Shown: in pieces, positions 40,423-53,100 of the stretch
How the letters are laid out: each line of letters begins with the position of its first letter
How positions within the stretch are numbered: the first letter of the stretch is position 1
Source: Chrysochromulina tobinii
Taxonomy: Eukaryota; Haptophyta; Prymnesiales; Chrysochromulinaceae
Reading direction: 5' to 3'
Length of the DNA stretch: 64,000 bases
NCBI GenBank assembly: GCA_001275005.1
Contig: JWZX01003203.1
Location: 20,013 to 84,012 of the forward strand
Made by a program: the position numbers and the translations under genes
Notes under the pieces: model-generated
What the model was told of the DNA's origin: nothing
Databases searched by the model: none
The model's input: only the letters and a program-made list of their open reading frames with translations

Positions 40423-42822
40423 TCAGTCATCACTATCGCGCAGCAGCGGCCGCGCCTCGTCGAGCTTGCCCTGATGAAACAGGAAGAAACCCAATGCTCT
40501 CATGGAGTCGAGCGTGGTAGGGTGCCGATCGCCGAGCGTCGCACGCTGCGCCTCGAGCGCCTCGCGGTACAGCGGCTCCGCCTCATCGAGCTTGCCCTGG
40601 GCTTCCAGCAGATTCCCCAGATTGTACATGATTCTGAGCGTGTCAGAGTGCCTATCGCCGATCGTCGCACGCATCGCCTCGAGCGCCTCCCGGTACAGCG
40701 GCTCCGCCTCATCGCGCTTGCGCTGAGCCGACAGCAGATTCCCCAGATTGTTGATGGATCTGAGTGTGTCAGGGTGCCGATCGCCGAGCGTCGCACGCAT
40801 CACCCCAAGCGCCTCGCGCACCAGCGGCTCCGCCTCGTCGAGCTTGCCCTGGGCCCGCAGCAGATTCCCCAGATTGTTCAAAAACTTGAGCGTGGTAGGG
40901 TCCCGATCGCCGAGCGTCGCACGCACTGCCTCGAGCGCCTCGCGGTACAGTGGCTCCGCCGCGTTCAGCTTGCCCTGGGCCTTCAGCAGCTGCCCCAGAT
41001 TGTTCATGGAGATGAGCGTAGAAGGGTGCCGATCGCTGAGCGTCGCACGCTGCGCCTCGAGCGCCTCGCGCAGCAGCGGCTCCGCCTCGTCGAGCTTGCC
41101 CTGGTCCTGCAGCAGCGCCCCCAGGCGATTCTGCAGCGCCGACGTCGCCCGCTCCTCGCGCGGCATGCGCGCCAGCGCCGCGCGGCCCTCCGCCGCGAGC
41201 CACTCGCGCAGCGCCTCCGAGAGCCGCGCATCCAGCTCTGTGTGACCGCCTTTCAGCGTGCGATCGATCGCCGCGTGGACCATCGCCTGATCCTCCCGCG
41301 TGAAGCACTCGGCCGAGCGCGAGTCGATGTGTGCCACGCTTGCCGCGATCACGTCAAACTCATTCACCAGCGCCGCCTGAAAGTCGTCCGACTCCGCCGG
41401 CGGCAGCCGCACCCTCAGTGCGGACGACGCGCCGCCCTTTCCTCTTCGCGCCGTGAGAGTGCACAGCACCTCCCAGAGCATCCACGCGCGCCGAAGTGGC
41501 ACCGCGTCCCGCCATGGCGCGAAGACGAGGCACGTGTGCCCGATCGCGGCCGTCGTGAGCTGGAAGACGACGTCCCAGTTGCAAGGCCGTTGCGCCGTGC
41601 CCACGTCGCCGATCCAGTGCTGGTACTGCGAAAAGATGTCGAGCCACACGTAATGCCGCTCGTGCTCCTCTTCAGGCAGCGACGACACGTGCGCACACAC
41701 GGCGTCGACGAGGTCGCGGAAAAGGTACTTGCGCGCGTGCGAGACGAAGATGGTCGGTGCGGCGGCCAACGGCACGCCCGTCACGGGGTCGACTGCCCCC
41801 AAGCGGACGAGGCACGCGGCCAGCGAGTCCCCTGCTGTCTCGGTGAGCGGCATGCACACGCGCTCGCACACGTCCTCAGTCGTGGCATCGACGAGCAGTG
41901 CCTCGTGTGCCCGAGCGAATGCGCGCAGGCACGCGACCGACACGCCGAGAAACGGCCAGTTGGGCAGCACACCGATGGCCGCAGCAGACACCACGCACTC
42001 CATCTGCGCATCCTTATCGCCGAGCCGCTCGAGGCGGACGCGCCACCGCCCGTCGGAAGATCCCAGCTTCTCGAGGAGGGTGACACCCTGAATGTGACAA
42101 AAGGACAGAGAGGGGCGCACGCGCGGTCAGCGCACATTGAATGCTGTGGTCCATGAATGCAGAGAGAAGACACTCGACTCGGGTCCACGCACCTGGCCAT
42201 TGAGCTCCGGCTCGTCCTGCAGGCCAAACAGCGCAGCCGGGTCGCCCACGGAGAGCGCCCTTGGGCTGCCGTAAATATCAAGCTCGAGCGACCCGATCCC
42301 GAGCCAGTCGGCCTTGCGCGCCGCTAGCCGCAGCGGCGCCAGGCGCACCGCCTTCATCCACATGTCGCGGCCCGCCCTCCACGAGAATGTGACGTCGGAT
42401 GCTGGCACGTTCATCTCCTTCACTGGTTGCTGATCGCCGCCAGTCTTGGCCCGAATGACCCACTCTCCCGGCCGGCCCTCGCGCAGAAGGTCGCCCTCCA
42501 GGCCGACACCGGCGACGGTGGCGACGACAGGATCGCCCGGCCGCAGCGGCTGGTGGCGCCGCCGCTCCACCACGACGTGGACGAGCGAGGTCACGCCGTC
42601 GGACGCGAGGACGTCGAAGCCATCCTCGGTCGTCTCAACGAGTGTCGCATCGAGCGGCACGCCGGGCAGGTACTCTTCCATGTCCTTTGCAGCCATGTAG
42701 GTGCGGCTCCAATCGTATGGCGGGGCGATTGCGAGGTGCCGCGTCGGGCAAGGACGGTCGGTCGGCACGCGCGCCGTCGTGATGGCGTCAAGCAGCGCGC
42801 GTTCCGCGAGGGAGTCCTCCAT
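40423..42822 (-). CDS. TIR-like/TPR (kinesin-light-chain-type) protein, copy 1, shortened
   Basis: Exons 42822..42193 and 42087..40423, 764 residues. An N-terminal domain of unknown function (APPYDWSRTYMAAKDMEE) leads into a small barrel split by the intron (FGLQDEPELNGQ|GVTLLEKL). The TIR-like domain follows: APTIFVSHARKYLFRDLVD, HYVWLDIFSQYQHW, TCLVFAPWRDAVPLRRAW and MLWEVLCTL, whose Glu sits where NADase TIRs have the catalytic Glu. Five and a half 42-residue TPRs (AEPLYREALEAQRATLGD) follow. It ends inside the sixth TPR, whereas copy 2 continues for several more repeats and two barrel modules, so this copy is truncated. TIR/TPR proteins in bacteria and protists are often immune-type sensors or effectors; that role is an inference here. 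It diverges from the NLR-like gene across a 380-bp promoter. Confidence 0.8.
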
Positions 42823-43202: not shown

Positions 43203-46200
43203 ATGCCTCCAAAGCCCACAGCCGGCTCCGGCTTTGCTGCGGCGAAGGCAGCTACTGCGCTCAAGCTCAGTGCTAAGGCAGCGACTGCGTCCAAAGGAAA
43301 ACAGCCCGGACGTTCACTCGACGACGAGCTCGCCGCCGCTTGGATGGTGGCACCGACTCAAGGTGAGGAGACCTGCAGCTGCTCACAGCCGAGCTTGGCA
43401 GCGTTGTCACTTTCGACAGAGCTGGCTGCAAAGCTCAATGAACAGCCTGCGGACATGCAGCAGGCTGCTCGGAACTTGCTCGAGCTGCTCATGGCAACCT
43501 CTGCTGGCGTGCACGCCAGCGTGCTGCGATGGGAAAGCCTCAACGAGACCTCTGGATGCCGAGTTTGTTGGCTGCGCGTGACCGCGCTCGGTGAGCACCC
43601 CTCCCTCATCAGGCTCGGCCGCGTCGCTCTCGTACGCGCCGAGACCGCGCGGGCCACTCGCTTGGAGCCGAGTCGGCACTTGCCAACGGCGATCTCTCCG
43701 GTGCTCGTGCACCCGCCGCTCGCCGCCCAGAGGTGCGATCTCCCGCTGGCCTCTTGGCGATCGCTCGAGCCGTCGCGCTGCACCGAGGACGGCGGGTTGC
43801 TCCAGACGTGGGCCGACCGGCTGGCCGCGTACCTCAAAGCCTCGGCGAGCCACGCACAGCACAGCGAGGCAGCCCTGTACAGCGTGCTCGAGGAGCTGTG
43901 GGATCTTGATGGTCCGTTGGCACGGCTCGCCGGTACGACCGCCGAGCGCACCGCCACGTCCAAAGCATGGCTTGCCGCACGGCTCGGTACGCTCACCCAC
44001 GAGCTCAGCCAGCAGCTCCTCCCTGGCCTCAAAGACACACGGCGCGAGGCGCTCACGACGGCGTTGCATGCGCCGCTGCTGAGCGAGCTGAGCAAGTGCA
44101 TTGCACTCAAGGAGCTCGCGACGGTCCTGCCGCCGGGGCAGCAGCTTGCATGGGGCAGCCAGCCCGAGTGGTTTGAGCAGTCGGAGCTCAGCCAGCTCGC
44201 GCGTGATGAGCGGTCCGAGCCGGTGCGCTCCTGATGACCCTTGATTGCGGTCCGAGCCGGTGCGCTCCTGATGACCCTTGATTGCGCGAGCCGGTGCGCT
44301 CCTGATGACCCTTGATTCCGAGCCGGTGCGCTCCTGATGACCCTTGATTCCGAGCCGGTGCGCTCCTGATGACCCTTGGTGGCGTCGGAATGCTTCGCTC
44401 TGAGCGGTCGGCTCCTGATGACACTCGAGATTGCATCTGATGGCGTCTGATGGCGTCTGATGACCTCACTCATCAGGTGCGCGCCCTCCTCGAGGCGCTT
44501 GCCGCGCTTGTGACGGCCGGGGCCGGTGGTGCCGCTGAGGCGGCGGCGGCGGCGGCGGCGCTGTCGGCGCACAAGCCGGCCAAAGGTGGAGGTGCCGGCG
44601 GCAAGGGCACCGGCAAGGGCGGCAACAAGAGTCTCGGTGCTTTGTTGGCACAAGCAATCGGTGCTGCTGGTGGCGAGGGTGGCAAGGGCGGCGCCAGTGG
44701 GGAGGATCAGGGGACCACATGGCTGGCTCTGTGGAAGCCGACTGTTGCCGCCCACCACGGCGCCCTTAACCAGGCGGCGAGTTTGTTACTCGACGTCAAG
44801 GGTCGCTGGTGGCTTGCGGACGCACCGACCGACACGTCACGGCGCGCGGACTTGTGGGAGGATGCAGCGGGCGTCGTCGTGGCGATGGTGCTCGAGGCGG
44901 CGCCGGCTGCGTCGATGGCGGCAGACGAGGTGCTCGCCACGACGCGATCGTGCCCACGACTTAGCATGCAAGTGCTCACCACGGTGTCCTCTCCCCACAG
45001 GTGCTCGCCTGCATCGACGCGATCGTGCCCACGACGCCGACCGCCGCCATGGAGTTGTGGACGCCCTTGCAAGTGCCCATTGGAGGGAGCCAGATGGCAC
45101 GCCGCCTGATCAAGCTCGTCGAGGAAGTCCTGGTGAACTCGACCCGGCATGCGGCACGCGTATGCAGCGGCCGTGCGCCCTCGTCTGCGCGCCAGCCGGC
45201 CGACTTGCATCCGTTACCGTGGCGGCTGGCGCTGCTCACGACGGCGCTCCGGGCCGTGCGCTCGCCGCGATTGTGCTCCGTGGCCAAAAAGGCCGCGTGG
45301 CACCTAGTGGTGCGCTGCGCGAGCGCGGCGCTGCTCGATTTGCGCCGACCGCCCGCGACGACGCCCCCTGAGGACGCACGCGCACTTGAGGAGGTCGTGG
45401 TGCGTGAGCAGAGGCTGAGTCTTGCGTGCGTGCAGCCGCTCGCCCTACGCGCCGTCGCGGGCGGAATGAGCGCCGACGCCGCTGACATCAGTGCCACCTC
45501 CGACGCTACCGCTACTGACTCCTCCACTGCCACTTCCGAAGAGACGGTGGCGTACATTGATATTGAGGGCGCACTGCTCACCTCGAGCGGCGGCCGCTTC
45601 GGACGCGAGTTTGATGACGTGCTCAGCTCATTCCGATTCGACGAGCTTGACGGCGCGCACCACTTGGCCCACCGTGCGCCCAGCACGTTCGACGAGATCA
45701 GCAGCTACGAGATGGCCTTCTCGGCCGTGGGCAGTGCGTTTACGAGCTTGCACTCGAAGCTACACACACTCAAGCCGCGTCTCGCCGAGCTCGCCGCCCT
45801 GCTCCTGGGCGGCGCGCTGGGCGGCGCGGGCAGTACAGCTAAGGCCGAGCAGCTGCTCGCGGCGCTCACGGACGATGTGGTGACGAAACTCCTCAAGGAC
45901 GAGGCCGAGGCGGTGCTCAGCACGGCGCTCGAGGCGCTCCAGCAAGGGGTGAGCGACGCGCGCCGATGGTGCGCCGCTCATGCGAAGGCGGCCCAGGCGA
46001 AGCTCATCGTGACAGAGCGGCTCGTCAACGCGATCGCCTCGAGCGCTCACGCTGCGGCGGTGTGCAAGAGCCGCCAGGGTGAGACGCTGCGCAGCGGCTA
46101 CCGAGGGCCACGCTTCGACTCCGGCCAGCCGTTGGCCGTGCTCGATCGCTCGCAGGCGCGTTGATTGCCACTGATGACCTGCCTTGCATGCCACTGCTCA

Positions 46201-49200
46201 CCACAGCGCGAGACGTGCTCGATCGCTCGCAGGCGCCCTTCGTGTGGAGAGAGGCGCGAGTGGTCCACGGCGGCCCCATCCTCGCCGCTATCGACGCCCA
46301 GGGGCGCGTGGTCACGTGGGGAGCGCGTGCGGAGCAGCTGACTGGTCTGCCGGCCAAAGCGGCGCACGGGCAGCCGTGGGCGAGCGTGCTGCTGGCCGGC
46401 ACGGACGACATGATCATGGACTCGGAATCGCATGCGAACAAGGTGCTCGCGGGCGAAGCCGAAGGCAACGCGTATGTGAGCATCTGCACGCCCATACGCG
46501 ATGCCCACGGAAACCCCACAGTCGTCGCCCCGATGCTCATCCGGCCGGTTACGTCGGCCGAGCATGGCGCGCTGCTGACGGCCGCCGCGGCCGCCGTCGT
46601 GCTCGAGGCGGCAACGGACATTGCACTTCTGAGCGTCTATGATGGTGGCGAGCGGCTGGCGGGCGGCACAGCAAGGGCGCGGCAGCTCGAGATGAGCCTC
46701 GAGCCGTTCAACCACGCGCCTCGCCTGCTGTCCATGGCGGCGTTTGACAAGCAGCTGCGCCTCTTCATGCAGGGCATGCAGATGGAGCTTGGGTGTGTCT
46801 ACGACCCCGTCGATGGTACGGCGCGCCCAGCAGGCATGGAGCCCGTGCCCGTCACGCTCGCTGCCAATGCTCCAATGGTCGCTGGGAATGGGACGGCGCC
46901 CGCGCCACCCTCTCTGAAAGACGTGACCGACGCACGTGCCCTGTGGGATCAGCTACAAGCCGCGCATCGCGCCAACCTCGCCAATAGCGAGCACGCGAGC
47001 CGGCAACCGGTCGGCGCCGTCGTGAGCGGTCGCATTGGCGCCGGCAAGAGTACCTTTTTGCGTCAGCTTGGGCTGCGCGGCTGCTCGACCTTCCTCAATC
47101 TGGATGCGGCGGCGGCGGCGACGGCGCTTGTGCCGCTGCTTGTGCCGGTGCCGCAGCTCGCACGCCTGCTGCGCTCGAAGCCCGCCGCGTTTGCATCCGC
47201 GTGGAACCACGCAGCTGCCTTCGTGACGCTCGCGATCGAGGGGGAACTTACCCAGCTCACGCTGCGCCAGTGCCTGATGCAGCGGCGCTGCGTGGTGCTC
47301 CTCGATGGCGTGAGCGATGGCGGCCTCGTGGGTGAGAATGAGCGGGCCATTCTCGAGCACGTGGTGCACGTGCTTGTCCCACAGGGCCACGCAGTCGTTG
47401 CGACCATCCGCGACGAAGCCATCCCTGCCGATGGAAGCAGCAGCAACGTCCGAGCCGACGGCTGCGCCAGAGCAGACGACCCACGCATGCAAGCGCTCAC
47501 CACGGCGCCGCCTTTCGGAGCAGACGACCCACGCACCGCCGATGGGCACAGTCCCAATGCGGAGCCCTTCCGGCTCAGCCGCTCGGCCCGTTTGCCGTGG
47601 CTGCAGCTCCGCACGCGAGATGGAAAGGCGCAAAGAGCTTACCTCAAGAGCCTGCTCCAGGGGAATCAATCGCGCCTTTTCGACGCGACAGCGTTGCTAC
47701 ACGCTGCGGAGCAGGCGGCGCTCGACGACGTGCAAGGACTCGGAGAGGCAGCGGCCGAGGAGGCGGCGAATGAGTTTGCCTCTCCGTTGCTGCTGGCCTG
47801 CTTAGCGGCTGGCGTCTCTCCGCGCACCGACAGGAGCACAGGCACAGCAGCCACGTTCAAGCCCCCCGACTCAGTAGGAGCACTTCTGAGCGCTGCAGTG
47901 GATCGAATGCTGCGTGCCGCCGACCAGGTACCTCACCCTACTCGCCCTACTCGTGCAAGCGCTCACTACGGCGCCGCCCTCCTCACCCTACTCTCGCCTG
48001 CGCCTTCCCCTCATCACCCCTCGCATGCAAGCGCTCACTACGGCGCGGCGACCTCCGTTCCCCACAGGTACAGCGAGCGTGGCCGCTCAATCCGCAGACG
48101 TTCCAAGCGCAGCGGGCAGCGTGCGAGGCCATCGCGCTCGCAGCACATCTGAAGGGCGCGCCCAAGCCGGCGCCTTTGCAGCTGCCGCAGGCCAGTGGCG
48201 CTGGTGGCGCCGCCGCCGCTGCCGCTGCCGCCGCCGCCGCGAGCGTTTCAGACGCCTCCACAGATACCACCACGCCGATGACTGCAGGTCTGGCCGCATG
48301 CGTGCTGACTGAGGCGGAGGTGCTCGAGGCTCTCGAGGGCGCTGGGATGGGCGCCGCCGCCGCCGCCGCATGGGCCGCTCTTCGACGGCGGCTCGCGCGT
48401 GGTACGCTCCCCCTGCTGCGTCTCGTGAGCGCGCGTCCGCTGCTGCTGTGCGTGGCGCATCCACGGCTGCAAGAGCTCCTCGCGGCCGAAGCGCTCAGCC
48501 ACGGCCTTTGGCCCGCGACGATGCCCAAGCCGTGGGCATGGGGGGCTTGGTGGCGAGGCGTCAGTCGGTTGGGCTCCGACGAGCGGTTACGCGACCAATT
48601 CGGCGCGGCGCTGTTCAGCGCGAGCCGTGCCGATGAGCTCAAGCTCGAAGGCGTTCGAGGCGACAGCGTCGCGGCGGCGAGCGCGCTGCTGCTCATGAGC
48701 AGGCATGCAGCAGCCCACGCAAAGCAGTGGCGGCTGCGCACCGAGACGCTCATTGACGTAATGGAGACCATCGAGGAGCAGGGCAAGGCTGCGGCGGTGG
48801 AGGCTGGGGAGAGACGACTGGTGGGCTTGGGGCTGGGCGGGCTGCCGTTGGCGGGCTTTGCCGTGCTCTGCGCTCTGCTCGTGGGTGAGGCGAACACGAC
48901 GGCTCTCGACGTGAGCAAGAATGCGCTCTCGCCACCCCTCGCCGAGGCGCTGTGTCGAGCGCTGGTGCGTGCAGGCTCCGGCGTCCGACGGCTGCGGCTC
49001 GAGCGATGCACCCTGGGGGCGGAGGGCGTGTGTCGTGCGTGCGCGGCTCTCCAGGGCCGCCCGCCGCTCATCGACGTGGACCTGAGCCATAATGGCATCG
49101 GTGGCCTCGCGGCCGTCAAGGCGATTGCGTGCCTGCTCAGCCAGAGTCCACTCGAACGCCTCGTCCTCACCTCCAACCCTCTCGGCCAGCCACTTGCGGG

Positions 49201-49744
49201 CAGCGACGAGACGCCCGAGACGGCGCTCGAGGCCATCAAGACGCTGGCAAGTGCGCTAGCCAATAGCAAGTCGCTCAAGGAGCTGCAGCTGCGCGACGCT
49301 GGGCTCGGCCCCTCTGCCTGCGCGCCTCTGGGCGCCGCCCTCGCCGAGCATCGGAGCCTTGAGACGCTCAGTCTGTGGAAGAATCGGCTCGGGGCGTCGG
49401 GCGGCGGCGCCGCGTTTGTGGCCGCGATGAAGCTCAACGGCAGCCTGACGTGCCTCGACTTGCGCGGCAATCATCTTGATGACGAGTGCGGCGTCGCCTT
49501 AGCGGGCTACCTCGCCCGCCGCACGAAGCTGGCCACCTTGCTCGTCTCGGACAATGCCCTCCTGCCAGCGGCGGCCAAGGCGCTCGCCAAATCGTGGGCC
49601 GAGAACAGCGTGCTCACGGCGCTCGACGTGCGTGGCAACCAGCTCGACGCCGACGCGCTCAAGGCGCTCAAGGCGGCGCGTGTCGCGGCGGCCAAGAAGC
49701 ACGCTGGCGCCGTCGAGCTGCTCGTTGATGAGGTCGAAGGGTAA
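43203..49744 (+). CDS. NLR-like protein: PAS-like, NACHT ATPase, leucine-rich repeats
   Basis: Exons 43203..44222, 44477..44929, 45001..46155, 46233..47927, 48068..49744, about 1,999 residues, all junctions phase 0. Residues 1-876 are mainly helical, with a Lys-rich start and a Gly/Lys linker, no match seen. From 877 a PAS-like stretch (GGPILAAIDAQGRVVTWGA, RAEQLTGLPAKAAHGQPW). Walker A GRIGAGKST at about 1142-1150 and Walker B CVVLLDGVSD at about 1229-1238 define the ATPase. SPLLLACLAAG (about 1393) and LCVAHPRLQELLAAEAL (about 1568) are the NACHT-associated helices, the latter the F-x-H-x-x-QE-F-x-A motif. Residues about 1691-1987 are ribonuclease-inhibitor-type LRRs (LDVSKNALSPPLAEALC, VDLSHNGIGGLAAVKAI, LDLRGNHLDDECGVALA). 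NACHT-LRR proteins oligomerise on ligand binding to trigger immune signalling; a sensor role is inferred. No TIR, CARD or membrane segment is present. It sits between two TIR/TPR genes. Confidence 0.8.
44223..44476 (+). repeat. NLR-like intron 1, minisatellite with shared 3' cassette
   Basis: 254-nt GT-AG intron of about 34-bp units (GCGCTCCTGATGACCCTTGA), ending CTGATGACCTCACTCATCAG. It begins GTGCGCTCCT and exon 2 begins GTGCGCGCCCTCCT, an imperfect end duplication. Confidence 0.85.
44930..45000 (+). repeat. NLR-like intron 2 with long end duplication
   Basis: 71-nt GT-AG intron. Its first 31 nt are nearly the first 35 nt of exon 3: both start GTGCTCGCC and both contain GACGCGATCGTGCCCACGAC. 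It also carries GCATGCAAGTGCTCACCACG, a second intron-family motif, and ends CCCCACAG. Confidence 0.88.
46156..46232 (+). repeat. NLR-like intron 3, GC-AG with end duplication
   Basis: 77-nt intron with a GC donor (CAG|GCGCGTTG) and an AG acceptor (CGCTCGCAG|GCGCCC). A 22-bp direct repeat (GTGCTCGATCGCTCGCAG plus GCGC) spans both splice sites, starting at 46138 and 46215, so donor and acceptor contexts are copies of one another. Confidence 0.75.
47470..47535 (+). repeat. 48-bp intron-like in-frame insertion in NLR-like exon 4
   Basis: GAGCAGACGACCCACGCA occurs at 47470 and again at 47518. Between the copies lies GCATGCAAGCGCTCACCACG, the motif of introns 2 and 4. The 48-bp offset keeps frame and adds 16 residues. 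It has the structure of the gene's introns but no convincing donor/acceptor pair, so I keep it as coding. Confidence 0.6.
47928..48067 (+). repeat. NLR-like intron 4
   Basis: 140-nt GT-AG intron with two copies of GCAAGCGCTCACTACGGCG (about 47958 and 48029) and CTCACCCTACTC runs, ending CCCCACAG. Intron and exon 5 both begin GTAC. Confidence 0.85.
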
Positions 49745-50185: not shown

Positions 50186-53100
50186 TTACAGTTTGCGCAG
50201 ATTGGCTGGCTTCAAGGCAACCGTGCTCCCATCCTGCAGCCGCACAGAGTACCGCCCGCGCTCGCTGTCCCAACCGGCGGCCGTCCCCGTCCTGTCATTG
50301 AGCTCCGGCTTCGCCACGAGCCCATGCACCAGCACCTGCTCGCCAACGAGCCTTCCAGCACTTGGGTTGGGTGACGACGAAGACGGCGCCGTTCCTGGCA
50401 CAGATTGTGTCCCTGGCTGTGGCTCCTGTGGAGTGTCAAGCTGTCGCAGGTTGGCTGGCTTGAAGGACAGCAAGCTCCCATCCTGCAGCCGCACAGAGTA
50501 CCGCCCGTGCTCGCTGTCCCAGCCAGCGGCGGTCCCCGTCCTGTTGTTGAGCTCCGGCTTCGCCACAAGCCCATGCACCAGCACCTGCTTGCCGACGAGC
50601 GGCGCGCGCTTCGACTCTAGCGCCCTATGCAGGTCCATGACTTTGATCGTGTCGGGGTGCCGATCGCCGAGCGTCGCACGTCTATGCTCGACCAAAAGTG
50701 GCAGCGCCTCGTCGAGCTTGCCCTGGTCTTTCAGCAGATGTCCGAGATTCCTCATGAAGCCGAGTGTGTTAGGGTGCCGATCGCCGAGCGTCGCACGCAT
50801 CGCCTCGAGCGCCTTGCGCACCAGCGGCTCCGCCTCGTCGAGCTTGCCCTGGGCATGCAGCAGCGCCCCCAGATTGCCGATGGAGGCGAGCGTGTAAGGA
50901 TGCCGATCGCCGAGCGTCGCACGCTTCGCCTCGAGCGCCTCGCGCACCAGCGGCTCCGCCTCGTCGAGCTTGCCCTGGTTCTGCAGCAGCGACCCCAGAT
51001 TTTGGATGGAGGTGAGCGTGTTAGGGTGCCGATCGCCGAGCGTCGCACGCCTCACCTCGAGCGCCTCGCGCACCAGCGGCTCCGCCTCGTCGAGCTTGCC
51101 CTGGTTCTGCAGCAGCGACCCCAGATTGCTGATGGAGGTGAGCGTGTCAGGGTGCCGATCGCCGAGCGTCGCACGCCTCACCTCGAGCGCCTCGCGCACC
51201 AGCGGCTCCGCCTCGTCGAGCTTGCCCTGGTCCTTCAGCAGCCCCCCCAGAGCGTTGATGGAGCAAAGCGTGTTAGGGTGCCGATCGCCGAGCGTCGCAC
51301 GCATCGCCTCGAGCGCCTCGCGCCTCAGCGGCCCCGCCTCGTTGAGCTTGCCCTGATGATGAAGCAGCGATCCCAGATTGTGGATGGAGGCGAGCGTGTC
51401 TGGGTGCCGATCGCCGAGCGTCGCACGCCTCGCCTCGAGCGCCTCGCGCTTCAGCGGCTCCGCCTCGTCGAGCTTGCCCTGGTCCTGCAGCAGCGCCCCC
51501 AGATTGTTGATGGCGGCGAGCGTGTCAGGGTGCCGATCGCCGACTGTCGCACGCCTTGTCTCGAGCGCCTCGCGCAGCAGCGGCTCCGCCTCTTCGAGCT
51601 TGCCCTGGGACTTCAGCAGCGACCCCAGATTGTTGATTGAGCCGAGCGTGTCAGGGTGGCGATCGCCGAGCGTCGCACGCTGTGCCTCGAGCTCCTCGCG
51701 CCACAGCGGCTCCGCCTCGTCGAGCTTGCCCTGGGCATGCAGCAGCATCCCCAGCTGGTTCTGCAGCTCCGACGTCGCCCGCTCTTCGCGCGGCATGCGC
51801 GCCAGCGCCGCGCGGCCCTCCGCCGCGAGCCACTCGCGCAGCGCCTCCGAGAGCCGCGCATCCAGCTCCGTGTGACCGCCTTTTAGCGTGCGATCGATCG
51901 CCGCGTGGACCATCGCCTGATCCTCCCGTGTGAAGCACTCGGCCGAGCGCGAGTCGATGCGTGCCACGCTCGCCGCGATCACGTCAAACTCATTCACCAG
52001 CGCCGCCTGAAAGTCGTCCGATTCCGCCGGCGGCAGCCGCACCCTCAGCGCCGACGACGCGCCGCCCGTTGTTCTTTGCGCCGTCAGAGTGCACAGCACC
52101 TCCCAGAGCATCCACGCTCGCCGAAGTGGCACCGCGTCCCGCCATGGCGCGAAGACGAGGCACGTGTGACCGATCGCGGCCGTCGTGAGCTGGAAGACGA
52201 CGTCCCAGTTGCAAGGCCGTTGCGCCGTGCCCACATCGCCGATCCAGTGCTGGTACTGCGAAAAGATGTCGAGCCACACATAATGCCGCTCGTGCTCCTC
52301 TTCGGGCAGCGACGACACGTGCGCACACACGGCGTCGACGAGGTCGCGGAACAGGTACTTGCGCGCGTGCGAGACGAAGATGGTTGGTGCGGCGGCGAAT
52401 GGCACGCCCGTCACGGGGTCGACTGCCCCCAATCGGACGAGGCACGCGGCCAGCGAGTCCCCTGCTGTCTCGGTGAGCGGCTTGCACACGCGCTCGCACA
52501 CGTCCTCGGTTGTGGTATCGACGAGCAGCGCCTCGTGTGCCCGAGCGAATGCGCGCAGGCACGCGACCGACACGCCGAGAAACGGCCAGTTGGGCAGCGC
52601 ACCGACGGCCGCAGCAGACACCACGCGCTCCATTGGCGCGTCTCCGTCGCCGAGCCGCTCGAGGCGGACGCGCCACCGCCCGTCGGAAGATCCGAGCTCC
52701 TCGAGGTTGGATGACTTGAGCGAGACAGTCTTGTTGTGCGGCGCATCGAGACGAACGAACACGCGCTCGTCCAGGGCAGGCCCTTCGACCTCACCGACGC
52801 TTCCGTTGAGCTCGGGCTTGCTCGCGAGTCCATGAACCCGCACCCGGCTCCTAGCGAGCTTCTCGAGGAGCGTGACACCCTGTGTAGTCAGCAGAGGGGC
52901 GCGGTGAGAGACAGCGCAATGCACTCAGGCGTCACTGAAGGGGGTTTTGCGGTGTGCAATCCACCCGTCTTATCTTCGCACCACAGATATGAGGCGGGGC
53001 CGCGCGCCCGCACGCATGGCCGTGACACAACTCGATCGGCGTCCACGCACCTGGCCATTGAGCTCCGGCTCGTCCTGCAGGCCAAACAGCGCCGCCGGGT

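Follow-up and report, generated by a model that had tools for sequence, protein, structure and literature searches.

Does a single-celled alga encode a receptor built on the plan of animal NLR proteins, and what would a PAS-like segment contribute to it? The question is raised by a gene at positions 43203-49744 (+) of a 64,000-nucleotide (nt) stretch of DNA (the window) from the haptophyte Chrysochromulina tobinii (GenBank assembly GCA_001275005.1, contig JWZX01003203.1). A first-pass annotation, made from the sequence alone, had described it as an unusual NACHT-leucine-rich repeat (LRR) gene fronted by a PAS-like segment. Open reading frames (ORFs) and splice sites predict five exons that join in frame with 0 internal stops, from the ATG at 43203 to a stop codon finishing at 49744. 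The preferred gene model, D, encodes 1,999 amino acids. Models A, B, C and D are alike except around intron 3; residue numbers in the domain descriptions follow model A (1,993 residues).

The NACHT NTPase and the leucine-rich repeats

The gene probably encodes an intracellular STAND-type switch of a haptophyte NACHT-LRR family, with the LRRs as sensor and the PAS-like segment as an extra input or bait. The predicted protein carries a NACHT-class P-loop nucleoside triphosphatase (NTPase), followed by putative counterparts of the winged-helix and helical domains and by LRRs of the ribonuclease-inhibitor type. The first-pass annotation had read the same order, and motifs, family profile and LRR_6 matches confirm it. 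The supporting features are listed below; orthologues are four exon-4-sized metagenome proteins with open frames (P0122-P0125), 86-88% identical over exon 4.

47028..47054, + strand: Walker A, GRIGAGKST (orthologues GRIGTGKST)
47289..47324, + strand: Walker B, CVVLLDGVSDGG (relatives LLLLDGLDEAG)
47400..47414, + strand: sensor-1 arginine region, ATIRD
48335..48769, + strand: post-NACHT module, VAHPRLQELLAAEAL ... PWAWGAWW (counterpart in relatives SSHLSFQEYFAARAL ... PWQWPAWW)
48896..49730, + strand: about nine LRRs of 28-29 residues each, ribonuclease-inhibitor type, counted by eye

A profile of 116 family members, built without the window protein, gave that protein 198.2 bits; 200 shuffles reached 5.7 bits at most, and the reversed protein 0.2 bits. 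Domain 2 of this match is the post-NACHT module (63.6 bits). The Pfam family LRR_6 (cut-off 23.4) scored 51.5 bits on the exon-5 frame and 47.5 bits on the joined C-terminal part; the repeats lie C-terminally of the NACHT and winged-helix modules, as in the definition of metazoan NLRs. The predicted structure has a NACHT-type fold around the Walker motifs, on which the annotation had let its reading depend, and the first 14 rows of a VIA-align ranking of this structure are animal NLR chains.

Searches of the C. tobinii assembly (53.15 Mb, 2,253 contigs) with exon 4 matched 33 places, namely the exon itself and 32 others on 30 contigs, C1641 and C1087 among them; two of the contigs carry a pair each, and one pair possibly represents a single gene. 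Most of these matches span exon residues 148-398, i.e. the part past the PAS-like segment. Of 20 paralogous loci compared by phmmer, 12 have an ORF matching exon 4, 14 have one matching exon 5 in its post-NACHT part, and six have both matches in a single ORF. Ten ORFs from paralogous loci were scanned with Pfam: all matched NACHT at E ≤ 0.01 (three over the cut-off) and seven passed LRR_6. With residues 871-1440 as query, the protein database yielded six relatives, no orthologue among them, and the five that were scanned all passed the NACHT and LRR_6 cut-offs. One relative used as query found 176 proteins. Named relatives are Ctob_001341, Ctob_005934 and Ctob_016483 of C. tobinii, each a 'hypothetical protein'; further relatives are EukProt models of C. 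parva and proteins from metagenomes, of which JGI labels some RanGAP and one 'NLR family CARD domain-containing protein 3'. No relative was found in the prokaryote genome contigs scanned.

The family-profile score, the relatives that pass NACHT and LRR_6 and the NLR chains in the fold ranking together identify the gene as a divergent member of a multigene haptophyte NACHT-LRR family. The annotated NACHT-LRR protein in a microalga is thus supported by family profile, paralogues and predicted fold. By sequence comparison, the link to NACHT runs through relatives that pass the cut-off and not through the protein's own score.

Several observations weigh against this assignment. The protein missed the cut-off of Pfam NACHT (PF05729) in genome, exon-frame and joined-protein scans. 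VIA-align merely re-orders Foldseek's own list, and Foldseek alone returned nothing at E ≤ 0.001 for the predicted NTPase, with p97 first and NLRP7 ninth. Past sensor 1 the alignment is poor and the confidence of the model low, no effector domain was recognised by Pfam in the first 870 residues, and the acidic pair after Walker B is altered (see below).

The genome holds 34 NACHT matches at E ≤ 0.001, of which 27 pass the cut-off alone or with their neighbours; the window gene is absent among the 34. A subthreshold nSTAND_NTPase5 match lies at the P-loop, and LRR matches dominate a PDB search with the family alignment. About 60 residues after sensor 1 cannot be clearly matched in the relatives; a 48-nt insertion encodes 16 of these residues. 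Of the profile searches that the annotation had suggested, LRR_6 came out positive, the NACHT and PAS cut-offs were missed and NB-ARC (PF00931) was without a match in the exon frames and the joined protein. An NB-ARC, plant-type NLR identity was rejected on these Pfam scans. Elsewhere in the genome there are five NB-ARC places, all on contigs other than the window's. The STAND matches at G000:C252:13438-14094 and G000:C920:5851-6507 have identical scores (NACHT 42.6 bits, NB-ARC 41 bits) and are perhaps one duplicated or allelic gene.

The acidic pair bears on the explanation that competes best, according to which this family member no longer catalyses and works as a nucleotide-binding scaffold or pseudo-NTPase, with a regulatory or housekeeping function instead of one in defence. 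This is quite possible, if short of probable. S-D replaces the D-E of the relatives in the window protein and its orthologues alike, and ATP hydrolysis may therefore be weak or lost; a PAS-like input would fit metabolic regulation, and exon 1 matches only itself in its own genome, without a paralogue. On the other side, the alignment shows the Walker A lysine and serine, the Walker B aspartate and the sensor-1 arginine conserved with the relatives, and several animal NLRs likewise deviate from the canonical acidic residues.

Towards the N-terminus no likeness to the relatives compared was found. Residues 1-870, joined, matched no Pfam family at E ≤ 10 (the HMMER filters drop most matches above 0.1), and scans of single exons gave HbpS-like for exon 1 (E 0.11) and PDDEXK_6 for the exon-3 frame (E 0.41), both far below cut-off. 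In profile and HH comparisons with N-termini from 50 relatives, residues 1-1040 and 1-870 did no better than the reversed sequence. Pfam found no CARD, PYD or death domain in the N-terminal 870 residues, and the protein is therefore not classed as an animal NLR: it shares with NLRP3, NOD2 and NLRC4 the NTPase fold and the order NACHT, winged-helix/helical, LRR, and differs from them in the missing death-fold match, the long N-terminus and the PAS-like insert.

The PAS-like segment within the pre-NACHT module

Most non-redundant relatives carry a compact module just before NACHT (RRYAAGQPLTV..GGWRDADV...LHPWNHAP), which from its look we guess to be SH3/Tudor-like; P0026, P0078, P0081 and P0119 deviate from the one-piece form. 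In the window protein, two parts of this module flank the PAS-like segment.

46093..46265, + strand: pre-NACHT module, first part, GQPLAV...WREARVV, split by intron 3
46275..46571, + strand: PAS-like segment, Pfam PAS 21.1 bits, E 3.2e-4, below the cut-off of 22.6
46635..46730, + strand: pre-NACHT module, second part, ending in NHAPRLL

Left intact, the interrupted module scored 27.6 bits in model D and 23.3 in model A. When 123 residues were excised at each of 97 starts (0-96), the best start was 64, three residues past WREARVV, with 37.1 bits in model D and 32.5 in model A. With the upstream part shuffled, the best score of the same scan was 25.0 bits in the median and at most 33.6 bits, and 0 of 200 shuffles reached 37.1. 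When 6,157 pairings of start and length were tried, the highest score, 38.8 bits in model D, came from start 61 with length 113. For the 123-residue excision, the seven best scores all come from starts 62-75 and lie about 1 bit apart at most, and for 117 residues starts near 79-85 score best; since starts up to about 85 do nearly as well at some lengths, the boundary of the insertion is approximate. The segment thus appears to have been inserted within the conserved module directly before NACHT. Of the PAS-fronted protein in the annotation, the PAS-like character is probable, being conserved if subthreshold, and the position is better described as internal.

The segment is very probably a PAS domain, though this falls short of proof. 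Pfam PAS scored 17.4-21.1 bits on the window protein across scans, and PAS_4, PAS_7, Cache and GAF models match the same stretch, likewise below cut-off. A search of the PDB with the single sequence returned six matches, all to one region of phytochrome B (E 0.09-0.16). Nine of the 20 plasmid records listed, from a total of 47, have a named product: six are PAS domain S-box proteins, three of these being near-identical Rhizobium beringeri records, two are ATP-binding proteins and one is a SpoIIE phosphatase, and none of the 20 lies below E 0.3. As to the light sensing that the annotation had considered, the flavin-binding motif of LOV domains, GxNCRFLQ, is absent from the translated segment, and LOV-type light sensing was rejected for now as unsupported.

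An alternative that leaves the PAS fold in place makes the segment an integrated decoy, mimicking a host PAS protein attacked by pathogens and itself sensing nothing; integrated domains of this sort are known from plant NLRs. It interrupts a module that most listed relatives have whole, and the genome has 26 further PAS matches. Extra domains are also found in other members: single paralogous ORFs among the ten scanned carry PUB, Tpt1/KptA or IQ, and the accessions of the 120 relatives listed, out of 176, include those of PUB, SPRY, C-type lectin, EF-hand and ankyrin. We nevertheless regard a decoy as unlikely, given that 97-98 of 100 residues of the segment are identical in P0122-P0125 compared with 92-93% for the NTPase part, unlike a fast-evolving bait. 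PAS was absent from the ten paralogous ORFs at E ≤ 0.01 and from the precomputed accessions of the 120 listed relatives. The Tpt1/KptA RNA 2'-phosphotransferase domain occurs in a NACHT ORF at locus L025 (G000:C1990) and PUB domains in one at L027 (G000:C664), where OTU stays below its cut-off.

That the segment is a non-PAS insert with a weak likeness to PAS-type profiles seems decidedly doubtful. Pfam and NCBIfam PAS cut-offs were missed by the window protein and the three orthologues scanned (17.8-19.6 bits), the orthologue-derived profile found no PAS chain in the PDB, and a structure model from five near-identical sequences has a mean predicted local distance difference test (pLDDT) score of 37.2. 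Against it stand the E-value of 3.2e-4 with four further models on the same stretch, the uniform phytochrome B matches and the six S-box products. Foldseek rows for the pLDDT-37.2 model name PAS or LOV in 16 of 50 titles, none at E ≤ 0.001, a model of too low confidence to count as evidence. A first structure model had shown low-confidence helices here, which may be due to its alignment, where distant relatives make up 34 of the 38 rows.

Gene structure, repeats and neighbouring genes

43203..44222, + strand: exon 1, residues 1-340, open frame from the ATG, without a recognised domain
44223..44476, + strand: intron 1, GT-AG, about two thirds a 32-nt tandem repeat
44477..44929, + strand: exon 2, residues 341-491
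44930..45000, + strand: intron 2, GT-AG, 21-nt direct repeat near its start (44940) and just past its end (45015)
45001..46155, + strand: exon 3, N-terminal region, then the beginning of the interrupted pre-NACHT module; exon end in model A 46137
46156..46232, + strand: intron 3, GC-AG preferred (model A alternative 46138-46232, GT-AG); 23-nt direct repeat at 46137 and 46214
46233..47927, + strand: exon 4, PAS-like segment, second pre-NACHT part, NACHT P-loop NTPase and start of the helical domain
47472..47519, + strand: 48-nt in-frame insertion in exon 4, flanked by 15-nt direct repeats (47472, 47520), absent in four of four orthologues
47928..48067, + strand: intron 4, GT-AG, with two copies of a dispersed repeat motif
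48068..49744, + strand: exon 5, winged-helix/second helical module, then LRRs

Model D was preferred for intron 3 because, of the two models scored, the module profile gives it the higher value after excision. A division into two adjacent genes, with exons 1-2 or 1-3 coding for an N-terminal protein and the others for a PAS-NACHT-LRR protein, is very unlikely. No homologue joining exon 1 to the rest was found, in protein-database queries that were all centred on NACHT and had the N-terminal 870 residues outside their reach. All five exons connect in frame through their splice sites and have a third-position GC of 0.75-0.83 each, and the pre-NACHT module straddles intron 3 and so ties exon 3 to exon 4. 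A chance ORF or pseudogene was rejected on the shuffle and reversal controls and the open frames of the orthologues.

The 32-nt tandem repeat (4.9 copies, 44214-44378) starts at the end of exon 1 and occupies much of intron 1. The direct repeats of 21 and 23 nt that accompany introns 2 and 3 (44930-45035, 46137-46236) would fit an origin of these introns by insertion with target-site duplication. A short motif recurs at 44965, 47486, 47952 and 48024; its copies in introns 2 and 4 are imperfect, and the one in the 48-nt insertion of exon 4 is exact. The genome contains 110 copies of its 19-base core, GCAAGCGCTCACYACGGCG, and 0 of the backward control, and the motif resembles a dispersed introner-like element. 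Judging by the translation of P0124, intron 4 of an orthologue seems to have it as well. After sensor 1, a 12-residue repeat, GSSSSNGRADGC, varies in copy number among P0122-P0125 and is represented by one shortened copy in the window protein.

The gene is flanked by two similar ORFs on the minus strand, 40423-42126 (-) and 50186-52924 (-), each with many tetratricopeptide repeats. Before these repeats both read IFVSHARKY...LRRAWMLWEVLCTL, TIR-like by eye; Pfam gave no such match.

Known systems, proposed mechanism and meaning

The architecture itself is known, and its lineage is little described. The haptophyte relatives that were aligned or scanned share the NHAP motif, the NACHT NTPase, the post-NACHT module and ribonuclease-inhibitor-type LRRs with the window protein; they differ in their mostly one-piece pre-NACHT module, in the lack of a PAS accession among those listed and in the 50 N-termini compared. 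Plant NB-ARC-LRR receptors follow an analogous STAND-LRR plan with occasional extra domains, and are set apart by the NB-ARC domain that the window protein lacks a match to.

Fungal NLRs are described without LRRs (PMC4986451, 2014; Dyrka et al.), and the same source cites Yuen 2014 for LRR-free NACHT proteins that carry other repeats, from several holozoan and non-holozoan genomes. NACHT NTPases have been reported from early green plants, combined with WD40 in one green alga (PMC4773052, 2016). One survey reports no LRR receptors, by its definition, in a haptophyte (PMC2939053, 2010; Soanes and Talbot), and protists are mentioned for NACHT-LRR receptors in PMC12909245. Choanoflagellates have NACHT and LRR together (PMC6040629, 2018; Richter et al.); likened by description only, these proteins resemble ours in combining both domains outside animals, and PAS is not mentioned in the account of them given there. 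The words 'leucine', 'NLR' and 'immun' are all absent from the main text of the C. tobinii genome paper (PMC4580454). Among the matches listed in word searches of the open-licence literature we found no published description of haptophyte NACHT-LRR proteins, and in that literature no publication on NACHT, a PAS domain and a STAND NTPase together. The gene called unusual by the annotation is not a lone one, considering its 32 further exon-4 matches, and given the choanoflagellate proteins NACHT with LRR outside animals is not entirely new; what is new is the PAS-like insert in a NACHT-LRR STAND protein.

We propose that the LRRs hold the NTPase closed in an ADP-bound state and would sense either a ligand or a host factor that has been modified, upon which exchange of ADP for ATP may open the NTPase and permit oligomerisation. 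The long N-terminal region would then relay the signal as output, most plausibly a defence or cell-death response. The PAS-like segment would most likely add a second input (a small molecule, redox or the binding of a partner) or act as an integrated bait. A large family with exchangeable extra domains is typical of immune receptor families, and also of other signalling families. Going further, and tentatively, haptophytes may have built up an enlarged NLR-like repertoire of their own, its accessory domains being exchangeable, in which the PAS sensor inserted in this lineage, by a bound metabolite, redox state or partner, directly gates the STAND switch; we hold this to be possible but rather doubtful.

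NACHT-LRR receptors have been treated mainly as an animal feature, with a report on choanoflagellates (PMC6040629) and a mention of protists (PMC12909245) at its margin. The occurrence of a multigene family of this type in a haptophyte bears on whether the architecture arose several times. Its members are concrete candidates for the detection of viruses, bacteria or damage by a single-celled alga, and the PAS-like insert marks a defined position where environmental input might reach the STAND switch.

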